A stretch of 64,000 nt of DNA, from positions 682,001-746,000 of the forward strand of contig CANNDF010000001.1 of NCBI GenBank assembly GCA_947503305.1, written 5' to 3'. Under the pieces are notes generated by a model that saw only the letters and a program-made list of their open reading frames with translations, had not been told where the DNA came from and did not search any database. Numbering within the stretch: the first letter of the stretch is position 1; every line of letters begins with the position of its first letter. The stretch comes from an uncultured Dokdonia sp. GTDB lineage: Bacteria; Bacteroidota; Bacteroidia; Flavobacteriales; Flavobacteriaceae. Made by a program: the position numbers and the translations under genes. Positions 40,244 to 43,958 of this stretch are shown here, in pieces.

Positions 40244-40348
40244 TTACTGATGAAATAATCTTAAATTTGCGCCTTTAAATGATGTAAGTCATGCTGGTTC
40301 TGCTTTCGCAAAAGCGAACTTACATGTACAAACCCGTGAGCAGTAATT

Positions 40349-43300
40349 ATGAAATACCATTTTAACGAGATCGAAGCCAAATGGCAAAAATATTGGGCAG
40401 ACAAAGGCACTTTTCATGCAAAAAATGACAGTGATAAACCTAAATATTATGTCCTCGATATGTTTCCATATCCATCGGGAGCAGGGCTACATGTAGGACA
40501 TCCCTTAGGCTATATTGCCAGTGATGTCTATGCACGTTATAAGCGTTTAAAAGGGTTTAATGTATTACATCCACAAGGGTATGATTCTTTTGGATTACCT
40601 GCAGAGCAATATGCAATTCAGACAGGACAGCACCCAGCTACAACGACCAGAGTAAACATAGAAGGAGGGGTTGATAATCAAGGAAGTGTCATTGCAGGAT
40701 ACCGTAACCAGTTGGATAAAATAGGATTTTCTTTTGACTGGAGTCGTGAAGTACGCACGTCAGATCCTGCCTATTACAAATGGACGCAATGGATTTTTAC
40801 CGAGTTATATAACTCTTGGTACAATAATGATAGTAATAAAGCTGAAGGCATTGATACGTTGGTATCCGCTTTCGCTAAAACGGGGAATGGAACCATAAAT
40901 GCAGCCTGTGACGATACTACAGAAATCTTTACAGCCCATGAGTGGAACGCCTATTCTGAAAAAGAACAACAAGCCATTCTTTTAAAATATAGATTGACCT
41001 ACCTGGCCGAAACCGAAGTAAACTGGTGCCCTGCCTTAGGAACCGTATTGGCTAATGATGAGATTGTAAACGGCGTTTCCGAACGCGGAGGGCATCCCGT
41101 AGTCCGTAAAAAAATGACCCAATGGTCCATGCGTATTTCTGCTTATGCCGAGCGTTTATTACAAGGACTGGAAACCATTGATTGGAGTGAGTCTATCAAA
41201 GAAACACAGCGCAACTGGATCGGAAAATCGGTAGGGGCCATGGTCACATTCCCCTTAATCCCCCAAAGGGGGACTACGCCTGGCTATATGACGGGTGGGA
41301 ATAATTCACATATTTTGATTGAAAGAGCAAAAGAAATGCGTGAAAACCCTACGCCAGCTGAAGCTGCTTTATGGGAATCTTTAAAAGAAAAAAACTTAGA
41401 ATATAAATTTAGAAGACAGCATCTTATCGATAATTTTATTGTTGATTTTGTCTGTCTTTCTAAAAAATTAGTCATCGAAGTAGATGGAGCTATTCACGAT
41501 CACCAAAAAGAGGAAGACCAAGCTCGTACAGAAGTTTTAGAAGAATTAGGGTATAAAGTTATCCGTTTTAGAAATGAAGAAGTACTAGGAAACCTCGAAT
41601 CTGTTTTATCAAAAATAAAACAGACATTAGACAATCGTGAGATTCCCCCTTCGGGGGCTAGGGGGATTAGTGTATTTACCACCCGCCCTGATACTATTTT
41701 TGGGGTGAGTTTTATGACATTGGCACCAGAACATGAATTGGTGGCAAAAATCACCACTCCTGAACAAAAAGAAGCAGTAGATGCGTATATCGAAGCGACC
41801 TCAAAACGTTCTGAACGGGAGCGTATGGCCGATGTAAAAAAGATTTCTGGAGTATTTACAGGAGCCTATGCCGAGCATCCATTTACCAAAGAACCCGTTC
41901 CCGTATGGATCGGAGATTATGTATTGGCAGGCTATGGAACAGGAGCTGTAATGGCCGTACCCTGTGGCGATCAACGTGATTATGATTTTGCTAAGAAATT
42001 TGGGATTCCAATACCTAATGTATTTGAAGGCGTAGATATCTCAGAAGAAGCCTTTGCAGATAAGGCAGGTACCGTAATTGCAAATAGTGATTTCTTAAAC
42101 GGATTAAAATATAAGAAAGCTGTAAAGCTTGCGATTTATGAGCTGGAAAAAATAGGTGCAGGAACAGGAAAAACCAACTACCGTTTACGAGATGCGGTAT
42201 TTAGTCGTCAGCGGTATTGGGGAGAACCATTTCCAGTATACTATGTAGACGGAATGCCACAGATGATTGACACAAAACATTTACCCATCCATCTTCCGGA
42301 AATAGAAAAATACCTACCTACCGAAGATGGGGAGCCACCTTTAGGTCGCGCCGATGTTTGGGCGTGGGATACCAACACCAATACGGTTGTTTCTAACGAC
42401 TTGGTGGATGGAAAAACAATATTCCCGTTAGAGTTAAATACCATGCCCGGATGGGCAGGGAGTAGCTGGTACTTCTTCAGGTATATGGAGAAGGCACAAC
42501 GTGATGAAGTGTTTGCTTCCAAAGAAGCCTTGGACTATTGGAGAAATGTAGATTTATACATCGGAGGTTCTGAGCACGGGACAGGTCACTTGTTATACTC
42601 ACGTTTCTGGGTAAAATTCTTATACGATCGTGGTCACGTAGGAGTAGATGAACCCTTCCAAAAAATGATCAATCAAGGGATGATTTTGGGAACGAGTGCT
42701 ATTGCTTATAGAGTAAGTGGTACTAATACATATGTGTCTGCTGGTTTAAAAAATCAACATGAAACAGAAGGCATTCATATTGATGTAAACATTGTTAATG
42801 CTTCTGATGAAATTGATGTTGAGACATTAAGAAATTGGCAACCTCAATTTAAAGATGCGGAATTCATTCTTGAAGAAGACAAATTTATTGTTGGACGTGA
42901 AGTAGAAAAAATGTCTAAACGTTGGTACAACGTAGTCAATCCAGATGACATTTGCAATCATTACGGAGCAGATACCTTACGTCTGTATGAGATGTTCTTA
43001 GGGCCGCTGGAGCAAGCAAAACCATGGAATACGGCGGGGATTACAGGGGTCCATAATTTCCTTAAGAAATTGTGGAAATTATATCATTCTGGAGCAGAAG
43101 AAGCGTTTAACGTAACAGATGCTGAGCCTACAAAAGACAACTTAAAAACACTTCATAAAACGATCAAGAAAGTAGAAGAAGATATCGAGAACTTTAGTTT
43201 TAATACCTCCGTATCTACGTTTATGATTGCAGGAAATGAGTTGGCTGCACAAAAGTGTACGTCTAGAGCGATTTTAGAACCGCTTTTGATCTTAATTGCA

Positions 43301-43594
43301 CCCTATGCACCACATATTGCAGAAGAGCTATGGAGCAAGCTAGGACATACAGAAAGTATCTCTGAAACACCCTTTCCTGTATTTGAAGAAAAGCACCTGG
43401 TCGAGAGTTCAAAAAACTATCCGATCTCGTTTAATGGAAAAATGAAGTTTACCTTAGAACTTCCATTAGACTATAGCAAAGATCAGATAGAAGAAGTCGT
43501 AATGGCACACGAAAAAACACAACAATATCTTAATGGTCGTACCCCTAAAAAAGTAATTGTCGTTCCAGGAAAGATTGTCAATATCGTAGGATAA
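40349..43594 (+). CDS. leuS: Leucyl-tRNA synthetase with an inserted DUF559 nuclease-like domain
   Basis: 1081 residues, about 140 longer than the flavobacterial norm. HIGH motif HVGH (48-51); catalytic KMSKR near 854-858; editing-domain TTRPDTIFG near residue 445. Residues about 303-440 do not belong to LeuRS: they form a complete DUF559 domain (ENPTPAEAALWESLKEKNLE, FRRQHLIDNFIVDFVC, KLVIEVDGAIHDHQ, GYKVIRFRNEEVL). It sits in the loop between the strand GAMVTF and the strand leading into TTRPDT, at the start of the CP1 editing domain. The remaining LeuRS, including the Bacteroidota-specific MILGTSAIAYRVSG insert, looks intact, so the enzyme is probably active. Confidence 0.96.
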   Translation: MKYHFNEIEAKWQKYWADKGTFHAKNDSDKPKYYVLDMFPYPSGAGLHVGHPLGYIASDVYARYKRLKGFNVLHPQGYDSFGLPAEQYAIQTGQHPATTTRVNIEGGVDNQGSVIAGYRNQLDKIGFSFDWSREVRTSDPAYYKWTQWIFTELYNSWYNNDSNKAEGIDTLVSAFAKTGNGTINAACDDTTEIFTAHEWNAYSEKEQQAILLKYRLTYLAETEVNWCPALGTVLANDEIVNGVSERGGHPVVRKKMTQWSMRISAYAERLLQGLETIDWSESIKETQRNWIGKSVGAMVTFPLIPQRGTTPGYMTGGNNSHILIERAKEMRENPTPAEAALWESLKEKNLEYKFRRQHLIDNFIVDFVCLSKKLVIEVDGAIHDHQKEEDQARTEVLEELGYKVIRFRNEEVLGNLESVLSKIKQTLDNREIPPSGARGISVFTTRPDTIFGVSFMTLAPEHELVAKITTPEQKEAVDAYIEATSKRSERERMADVKKISGVFTGAYAEHPFTKEPVPVWIGDYVLAGYGTGAVMAVPCGDQRDYDFAKKFGIPIPNVFEGVDISEEAFADKAGTVIANSDFLNGLKYKKAVKLAIYELEKIGAGTGKTNYRLRDAVFSRQRYWGEPFPVYYVDGMPQMIDTKHLPIHLPEIEKYLPTEDGEPPLGRADVWAWDTNTNTVVSNDLVDGKTIFPLELNTMPGWAGSSWYFFRYMEKAQRDEVFASKEALDYWRNVDLYIGGSEHGTGHLLYSRFWVKFLYDRGHVGVDEPFQKMINQGMILGTSAIAYRVSGTNTYVSAGLKNQHETEGIHIDVNIVNASDEIDVETLRNWQPQFKDAEFILEEDKFIVGREVEKMSKRWYNVVNPDDICNHYGADTLRLYEMFLGPLEQAKPWNTAGITGVHNFLKKLWKLYHSGAEEAFNVTDAEPTKDNLKTLHKTIKKVEEDIENFSFNTSVSTFMIAGNELAAQKCTSRAILEPLLILIAPYAPHIAEELWSKLGHTESISETPFPVFEEKHLVESSKNYPISFNGKMKFTLELPLDYSKDQIEEVVMAHEKTQQYLNGRTPKKVIVVPGKIVNIVG
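41256..41669 (+). mobile_element. In-frame DUF559-encoding element inside leuS
   Basis: 414 bases (138 codons) bounded by TAATCCCCC (41256-41264) and its inverse GGGGGATTA (41661-41669). Each end also has an internal hairpin, CCCCCaaaGGGGG (41260-41272) and CCCCCttcGGGGG (41645-41657). No stop interrupts the leuS frame; internal in-frame ATGs at 41288 and 41336 could start a separate product, but no stop ends it. The encoded domain has the VDF...IEVDG acidic residues of DUF559/Vsr-like nucleases. I infer mobility from ends, length and position; no transposase-like gene is present. Confidence 0.7.
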
Positions 43595-43597
43595 ATC

Positions 43598-43625
43598 TTC
43601 CCCTTACCCCTCCAGAGGAGGGGAA
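43598..43625. repeat. GC-rich hairpin repeat behind leuS, similar to the element ends
   Basis: TTCCCCTTACCCCTCC followed by AGAGGAGGGGAA: a CCCCTCC/GGAGGGG stem. The layout (CCCCTTA, then a C-run, short loop, G-run) closely parallels the left end of the insertion in leuS (CCCCTTAATCCCCC, AAA, GGGGG). It may also terminate leuS. Confidence 0.6.
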
Positions 43626-43691
43626 ATTACATTGGGAGTTTAGGTACCACATAATTAAAAAACGAGGTGACACTTTAGTAAAACAAAAATC

Positions 43692-43958
43692 ATGGAGGGT
43701 ATAGAAATCATAGGCCTTATAGCAGCCACACTTACAACAGCTTCTTTTTTACCTCAAGTATATAAAACTTGGAAGACCAAAGATGTTTCTGGGCTATCAC
43801 TCCCCATGTTTTCTATGTTCTTTGTCGGCGTAGCTCTATGGATTGTTTATGGATTTTATAAAGATAGTATCTCACTTATTATAGGAAATAGTATTGCGGT
43901 TATCAATTCGTTTCTTTTGATATTTTTTAAAATTAAATACCACAATAAGAAGCACTAG
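43692..43958 (+). CDS. SemiSWEET sugar transporter (PQ-loop)
   Basis: 88 residues with three transmembrane helices; a dimer forms the transporter. The PQ motif is in TTASFLPQVYKTWKTKDVSG, followed by MFFVGVALWIVYGFYKDS. Usual length for SemiSWEET. Sugars or sucrose are the typical substrates. It stands alone between leuS and the zinc protease gene. Confidence 0.92.
   Translation: MEGIEIIGLIAATLTTASFLPQVYKTWKTKDVSGLSLPMFSMFFVGVALWIVYGFYKDSISLIIGNSIAVINSFLLIFFKIKYHNKKH

Follow-up and report, generated by a model that had tools for sequence, protein, structure and literature searches.

The leuS gene and its in-frame insert

The features recognised at the leuS locus of the 64,000-nucleotide stretch of DNA from an uncultured Dokdonia sp. 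analysed here (the window) are listed in Table 1.

Table 1. Features of leuS, of its insert and of the adjoining palindrome (positions in the window)
Feature	Position	Strand	Remarks
leuS, leucyl-tRNA synthetase with in-frame insert	40349..43594	+	1081 aa ORF
Inserted element	41250..41669	+	limits inferred from empty relatives and G016
Left end, an imperfect triplex-type palindrome	41251..41273	-	C-block, C-block, G-block on the + strand
Linker between left palindrome and nuclease	41274..41320	+	Y.T......LL.E, partly common to inserts of other hosts
DUF559 (PF04480) nuclease domain	41321..41629	+	aa 325-427; Pfam, invariant residues, PDB relatives
Right end, CCCCCTTCGGGGGCTAGGGGG	41645..41665	+	inverted relative to left end
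Solitary triplex-type palindrome	43597..43623	-	immediately past the leuS stop codon; not assigned to the element

According to a sequence-only reading of this DNA, leuS contains 138 extra codons encoding a DUF559 domain, without an introduced stop. We found this stretch to begin at 41256 with TAATCCCCC and to end at 41669 with GGGGGATTA (414 bp, 138 codons) in a single frame of 1081 codons with no internal stop. The identity of the domain was confirmed in a Pfam scan, too, where a complete DUF559 reached 124.9 bits (curated cut-off 20.6, E 1.6e-36). The only other Pfam model on the insert is the overlapping MTES_1575, and the unit has no transposase gene. DUF559 is located just upstream of the TTRPDT motif and is directly followed by the rest of the LeuRS editing domain (aa 438-595). 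As had been stated before, the LeuRS motifs are intact, with HVGH, KMSK and TTRPDT all in the translation.

In a search of the whole genome this insert was the sole DUF559 match. There is one full match to the LeuRS editing domain; the other one is weak, covers positions 85-145 and lies in a 903-aa frame. Since the genome has no second full match, the fused 1081-aa protein is presumably its working LeuRS. Ahead of the KMSK motif, at about 42690-42890, LeuRS is highly variable in length and sequence within the genus.

A nuclease family related to homing enzymes, inserted in frame at a conserved site, would be expected of an intein or intron that is spliced to give a mature LeuRS without the insert. 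However, Pfam detected no intein or other protein-splicing domain in this LeuRS or in 30 other proteins, and no Rfam family was matched at E up to 1 across 40300-43900, a region including leuS, whose frame stays open. Besides the nuclease only about 35 codons of the insert are left, some of them palindrome. Splicing is thus extremely improbable, and both intein and intron were rejected as no Pfam or Rfam family supports them. The description of the element as non-splicing is upheld to this extent, on a sequence basis.

Distribution and history of the DUF559 inserts

A LeuRS editing domain was recognisable in 16 of the 18 genomes in our genus set (own genome: G000). In the remaining two, the match was weak and partial (G006) or missing (G013). 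The insert is present in five of the 16 leuS genes (G000, G007, G011, G015, G016) and absent from 11. A fixed ancestral LeuRS domain is ruled out by these relatives without the insert. In the alignment, the empty alleles read WIGKSVGAxVxF-xLKDH....-VFTTRPDT at the insert site. The insert thus stands in for a short loop (about 6-8 codons) instead of simply adding to the protein. The supposed insertion into loops therefore holds for leuS with this amendment, but not for HemD, HisF, guanylate kinase and HisD, where the domain lies at the protein end.

The LeuRS tree comprises 32 rows, 11 without and 21 with insert (21 of the 22 LeuRS carriers, L087 being left out; L005 is short upstream); the duplicates L042-L046 were left out of the trees. 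Its well-supported branches cannot be reconciled with fewer than five gains or losses of the insert. G016 (insert) is the sister of G002 (empty), and G011 (insert) that of G010, which has a short palindrome and no nuclease (100/99 in both cases). Such another short palindrome occupies the same LeuRS loop in three of the 11 alleles lacking DUF559 (G003, G010, G014). Short palindromes with a peptide like SSAVEN were seen in frame in this loop (L039, L040, L041), at a second LeuRS place (L003) and at the second site of MetH (L002), as if these sites, holding DUF559 inserts elsewhere, were shared hot spots.

Between G000 and G016, 408 of the 414 insert bases are identical (98.6%), compared to 333 of 392 bases in the leuS flank upstream and 794 of 926 in the one downstream (about 85%). 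The dS values are 0.04 for the insert and 0.72 for the flank. This shift in identity falls at the palindromes, and the unit with a history unlike its flanks extends from about 41249 to 41673. As the tree sister of G016 is empty, these values indicate that the insert moved on its own. No co-conversion of the leuS flank accompanied this transfer, the nearest flank mismatches being at 41248 (last upstream) and 41674 (first downstream), which fits transposition better than classical homing.

Furthermore, one MetH of G231 carries two inserts, which are sisters in the domain tree (100/96). The DNA alignment of the two starts at the left palindrome and stops at the right one, which defines the mobile unit. 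The RecG pair L183/L184 shows 99.4% identity in the insert and 93.0% in the flank; the values for L247/L252 are less clear (93.6% and 87.9%). Both pairs come from 27 preselected at an insert identity of at least 0.78, and the host trees are for leuS, not RecG. Insert identity exceeded flank identity in 20 of the 27 pairs, mostly slightly. The mobility proposed from the sequence alone gains support from the G000/G016 discordance, the double MetH insert and the similar inserts in many other genes.

At least 143 of 299 genomes of the family have a DUF559 match, many of them in frames of 346-1282 aa, and the insert profile has hits with E up to 1e-30 in 80 of 395 genomes of the phylum. Forty DUF559 loci were read at family level and 40 more at phylum level (36 from the phylum list, four from the family list). 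Pfam placed DUF559 in, or at the end of, members of 22 protein families besides LeuRS among 30 proteins, in line with the claimed colonisation of further genes. The hosts include IleRS, ValRS, RecG, RecJ and UvrD-like helicases as well as HsdR, HsdM and Eco57I-type and type ISP enzymes of restriction type. Metabolic hosts are MetH, methylmalonyl-CoA mutase, histidinol dehydrogenase, HisF, HemD, coproporphyrinogen oxidase, a PurL-type amidotransferase, guanylate kinase, CoA-transferase III and a DegT aminotransferase. The remaining ones are UDP-GlcNAc 2-epimerase, an M23 peptidase and N-formylglutamate amidohydrolase. L220 had DUF559 alone in the Pfam scan.

LeuRS inserts at the place described here occur in many genera and, unless it is misbinned, in a Paceibacterota MAG (L277); L191 has a second LeuRS insertion site. 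The inserts of LeuRS, MetH, RecG, IleRS and ValRS adjoin conserved motifs, and the TTRPDT site of LeuRS corresponds to the TTRPET site of ValRS. In HemD proteins with an N-terminal DUF559 (L006, L007, L009, L015, L016), short palindrome-derived peptides (e.g. LPSPSGEELGMR) were seen further inside the protein.

Compared with PDB, the insert profile matched 3hrl (E 5.6e-31) and 3r3p, named 'Mobile intron protein' (E 9.7e-8), which we take to be I-Bth0305I. Across 34 inserts, 17 positions show no variation, including D63, E74, D76 and H80, with E74 and D76 as the presumed residues of the active site. The median dN/dS is 0.24 for the insert (131 of 210 pairs) and 0.14 for the flank; the nuclease of the inserts is under purifying selection.

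In a tree of 71 domains, the inserts of LeuRS, MetH, RecG, IleRS and HisD form one clade (100/97); the LeuRS carrier L087 is labelled 'free' in this tree. The free-standing genes branch apart from it, as do the HemD fusions (100/99), whose position indicates a separate lineage. A quick tree of 181 domains, based on few columns, with identical domains counted once and rows containing X dropped, required 36 changes among 15 site labels ('other' and 'free' being mixed ones), compared to 121.6 in shuffled data and a possible minimum of 14. DUF559 lineages largely keep to their site, with occasional jumps.

The recurrence at the same LeuRS place in many genera and the one Paceibacterota MAG, the purifying selection and the restriction and repair enzymes among the other hosts might also point to an old useful LeuRS domain, e.g. 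for repair or defence, inherited vertically and lost many times. This already disfavoured explanation is very unlikely in view of the G000/G016 dS values, the sister genomes without the insert, the occurrence in 22 unrelated protein families and the two copies in one MetH.

The palindromic ends

The inverted repeat-like ends reported earlier were both found as inverted imperfect palindromes around the insert. Our detector for triplex motifs (C-block, complementary G-block, mirrored G-block) recognised both of them at stem 5 and the left one alone at stem 6. With up to three mismatches, the right-end palindrome CCCCCTTCGGGGGCTAGGGGG has one match in the window and none in 100 shuffles. Triplex motifs over the whole window number three (mean 1.4, maximum 4 in 30 shuffles), which is not significant; their placement is informative, their count is not.

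A search for the ends elsewhere in the genome, as suggested with the sequence-only reading, yielded three matches to a looser form of the right-end palindrome, one in the leuS insert and two at one place in metH. At this metH locus outside the window (L103, C1:1124955-1125000), nuclease-less ends stand back to back in frame, at the spot of the second full insert in the MetH of G231. Within the genus, 10 of 18 genomes have between one and 32 matches. The four genomes without DUF559 have none; the same applies for the DUF559-bearing G003, G004, G005 and G009.

For a broader view we used 80 loci from named genomes, chosen out of 586 solely on nuclease similarity and coming in part from genomes already sampled. 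Cultured carriers include Cellulophaga baltica DSM 24729 (L226) and Gillisia mitskevichiae DSM 19839 (L229). Palindromes lie within 250 bp of DUF559 on both sides in 69 loci, on one side in 10 and on neither in one. Their density falls from 5.49 per kb (218 in 39.7 kb) within 250 bp to 0.137 per kb (57 in 417 kb) at distances above 1 kb, a difference of about 40-fold. The nearest palindromes of the 69 loci are oriented (-,+) in 30 cases, (+,+) in 17, (-,-) in 15 and (+,-) in seven. Among 23 free-standing DUF559 genes, nine have palindromes on both sides, nine on one and five on none (4.01 versus 0.08 per kb).

The median inverted-end score is 31.5 for LeuRS inserts (n=22), 33 for free-standing genes (n=19) and 22.5 for shuffled sequences (95th percentile 31). 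Scores of 33 or more occur in 10 of the 19 free-standing DUF559 genes, which include near-copies, and in 6 of 80 control ORFs (p 3.5e-4). Across the family, 30 of 105 genomes with DUF559 (E up to 1e-20) have a palindrome excess of at least 5, compared to 7 of the other 194 (p 1.2e-9), a comparison that ignores kinship and includes overlapping matches and the inserts' own ends. The other 75 DUF559-bearing genomes have no such excess.

It might be that the palindromes themselves are the mobile units, recombining or replicating at their hairpins, with DUF559 trapped between two of them as a passenger that has no part in movement. The palindromes do occur alone, also in frame in genes and with up to 32 matches in one genus member; the moving unit stops at them; and G266 has 24 pattern matches and zero DUF559 matches. 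A mere passenger would, however, hardly be under purifying selection with invariant residues, its lineages track the insertion site, and the palindrome excess is commoner in genomes with strong DUF559 matches, kinship again ignored. We therefore regard this explanation as unlikely, though less so than an old LeuRS domain.

Lone palindrome copies were also seen in frame within, or at the end of, further genes (L133, L147, L138, L141, L144), by eye at the start of HisH, in a later part of LeuRS, in a dehydrogenase E1 and at the end of a ketopantoate-reductase-like gene. Intergenic regions of G013 and G014 (L131, L132, L136) are packed with several other palindrome families.

A proposed nuclease element without splicing and its relation to known systems

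We put the probability at roughly 65% that the insert is a mobile, selfish nuclease element with palindromes as its bounds, resembles homing endonuclease genes and stays unspliced, as an additional in-frame domain of a functional host protein. Judged by sequence comparison, it is patchy at one exact site, was transferred between two genomes as a palindrome-ended unit and has such units as counterparts in other genes. The DUF559 nuclease, which is related to a mobile-intron endonuclease, would cut empty alleles beside a conserved motif, and repair of the cut allele would copy the element in, i.e. homing. Rare copying to other sites may found new lineages, and the ends may persist as nuclease-less copies, too. 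With a short loop exchanged for the insert and the frame preserved, the host enzyme presumably remains active, so that neither intron nor intein would be needed.

Homing, with a nuclease step that we infer, is the leading candidate for the spread within a given site; the sharply defined ends and the occupation of new sites are more reminiscent of transposition. Counted against a mobile nuclease element is that only two further close pairs had an insert clearly more alike than the flank, and that the LeuRS inserts do not form one clean clade (13 changes on the quick 181-domain tree). Furthermore, inverted (-,+) ends are the largest class and not the rule, and several inserts (e.g. L071, L091) score no higher than shuffled sequences for inverted ends.

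A close parallel is offered by EDxHD or Vsr-like homing endonucleases of the I-Bth0305I type. They share a related nuclease (the 3r3p profile match), the conserved sites of essential genes and the recurrence at one exact site that is empty in sister alleles, but no intron or intein was found in the DUF559 insert, which is presumably translated within the host protein and is bounded by palindromes. A DUF559 gene has been placed in the EDxHD homing family in the part of the literature source used here (PMC9403480). Inteins with homing endonuclease domains likewise bring a nuclease in frame into conserved parts of essential proteins with a patchy distribution, whereas the DUF559 insert lacks a protein-splicing domain. 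According to the excerpt used of PMC3943268, homing genes inhabit conserved, essential genes by means of introns or inteins.

Palindromic repeats in frame in coding genes are known from the Rickettsia palindromic elements (PMC3733652, in part). The nuclease-less metH end pair, a short palindrome in frame in a gene, is comparable to these by description; unlike the elements found here, they are short repeats, and no nuclease-coding form is mentioned in the portion of that article used. Insertion sequences also have inverted ends delimiting a mobile unit (orientation not being uniform over our 80 loci), but the leuS unit has no transposase gene. REP sequences with RAYT are similar in that palindromes, found also on their own, flank a gene. 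RAYT is an HUH tyrosine transposase (cf. PMC2817692); here, instead, a Vsr-like DUF559 nuclease is present, often in frame in genes, and the unit contains no HUH transposase.

Homing nucleases, in-frame palindromes and triplex repeats are thus already known as parts. We found no report of DUF559 inserts in LeuRS, of DUF559 with palindromes, or of these parts combined in an element that inhabits essential genes unspliced in the accessible open-access literature, a scope outside which most subscription journals lie. In tRNA synthetases, methionine synthase, helicases and restriction enzymes, a related nuclease appears to have settled permanently as a domain. If our interpretation as a mobile nuclease element is right, this would be another solution, beside introns and inteins, to living in essential genes, would account for the unusual domains inserted into many proteins of Bacteroidota and would provide a testable partner for triplex motifs, a widespread repeat class.

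In their sequence pattern (C-block, G-block, mirrored G-block), the palindromes of the inserts agree with the intrastrand triplex motif known from E. coli. In the part of the paper used here, 23 such motifs are described for E. coli K-12, always intergenic and with no tie to mobile elements (Holder et al. 2015, PMC4666352); those in our study, by contrast, bound nuclease units inside genes. Copy no. 9 (1351239-1351204, PMC4666352, in part) is located 168 bp from the DUF559-annotated gene ycjD (L221 5205-5761), a name missing from the main text of that paper as far as it was covered. The chance of such proximity is about 0.4% (23 copies, a target of about 850 bp, 4.64 Mb), for a single case picked because of the hypothesis. 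Tentatively, and with somewhat less than even odds, DUF559 nucleases may mobilise bacterial triplex-forming repeats in general. The in-frame elements would then be the autonomous form of a class of selfish DNA residing unspliced in essential genes, and the solitary repeats, those of E. coli among them, would be its nuclease-less offspring. Two E. coli strains lacking the fabI-ycjD-sapF stretch have efflux genes beside sapF and no clean empty site; at least 80% of the length of a 1201-bp query of this stretch is held by 3330 of 5426 E. coli genomes.
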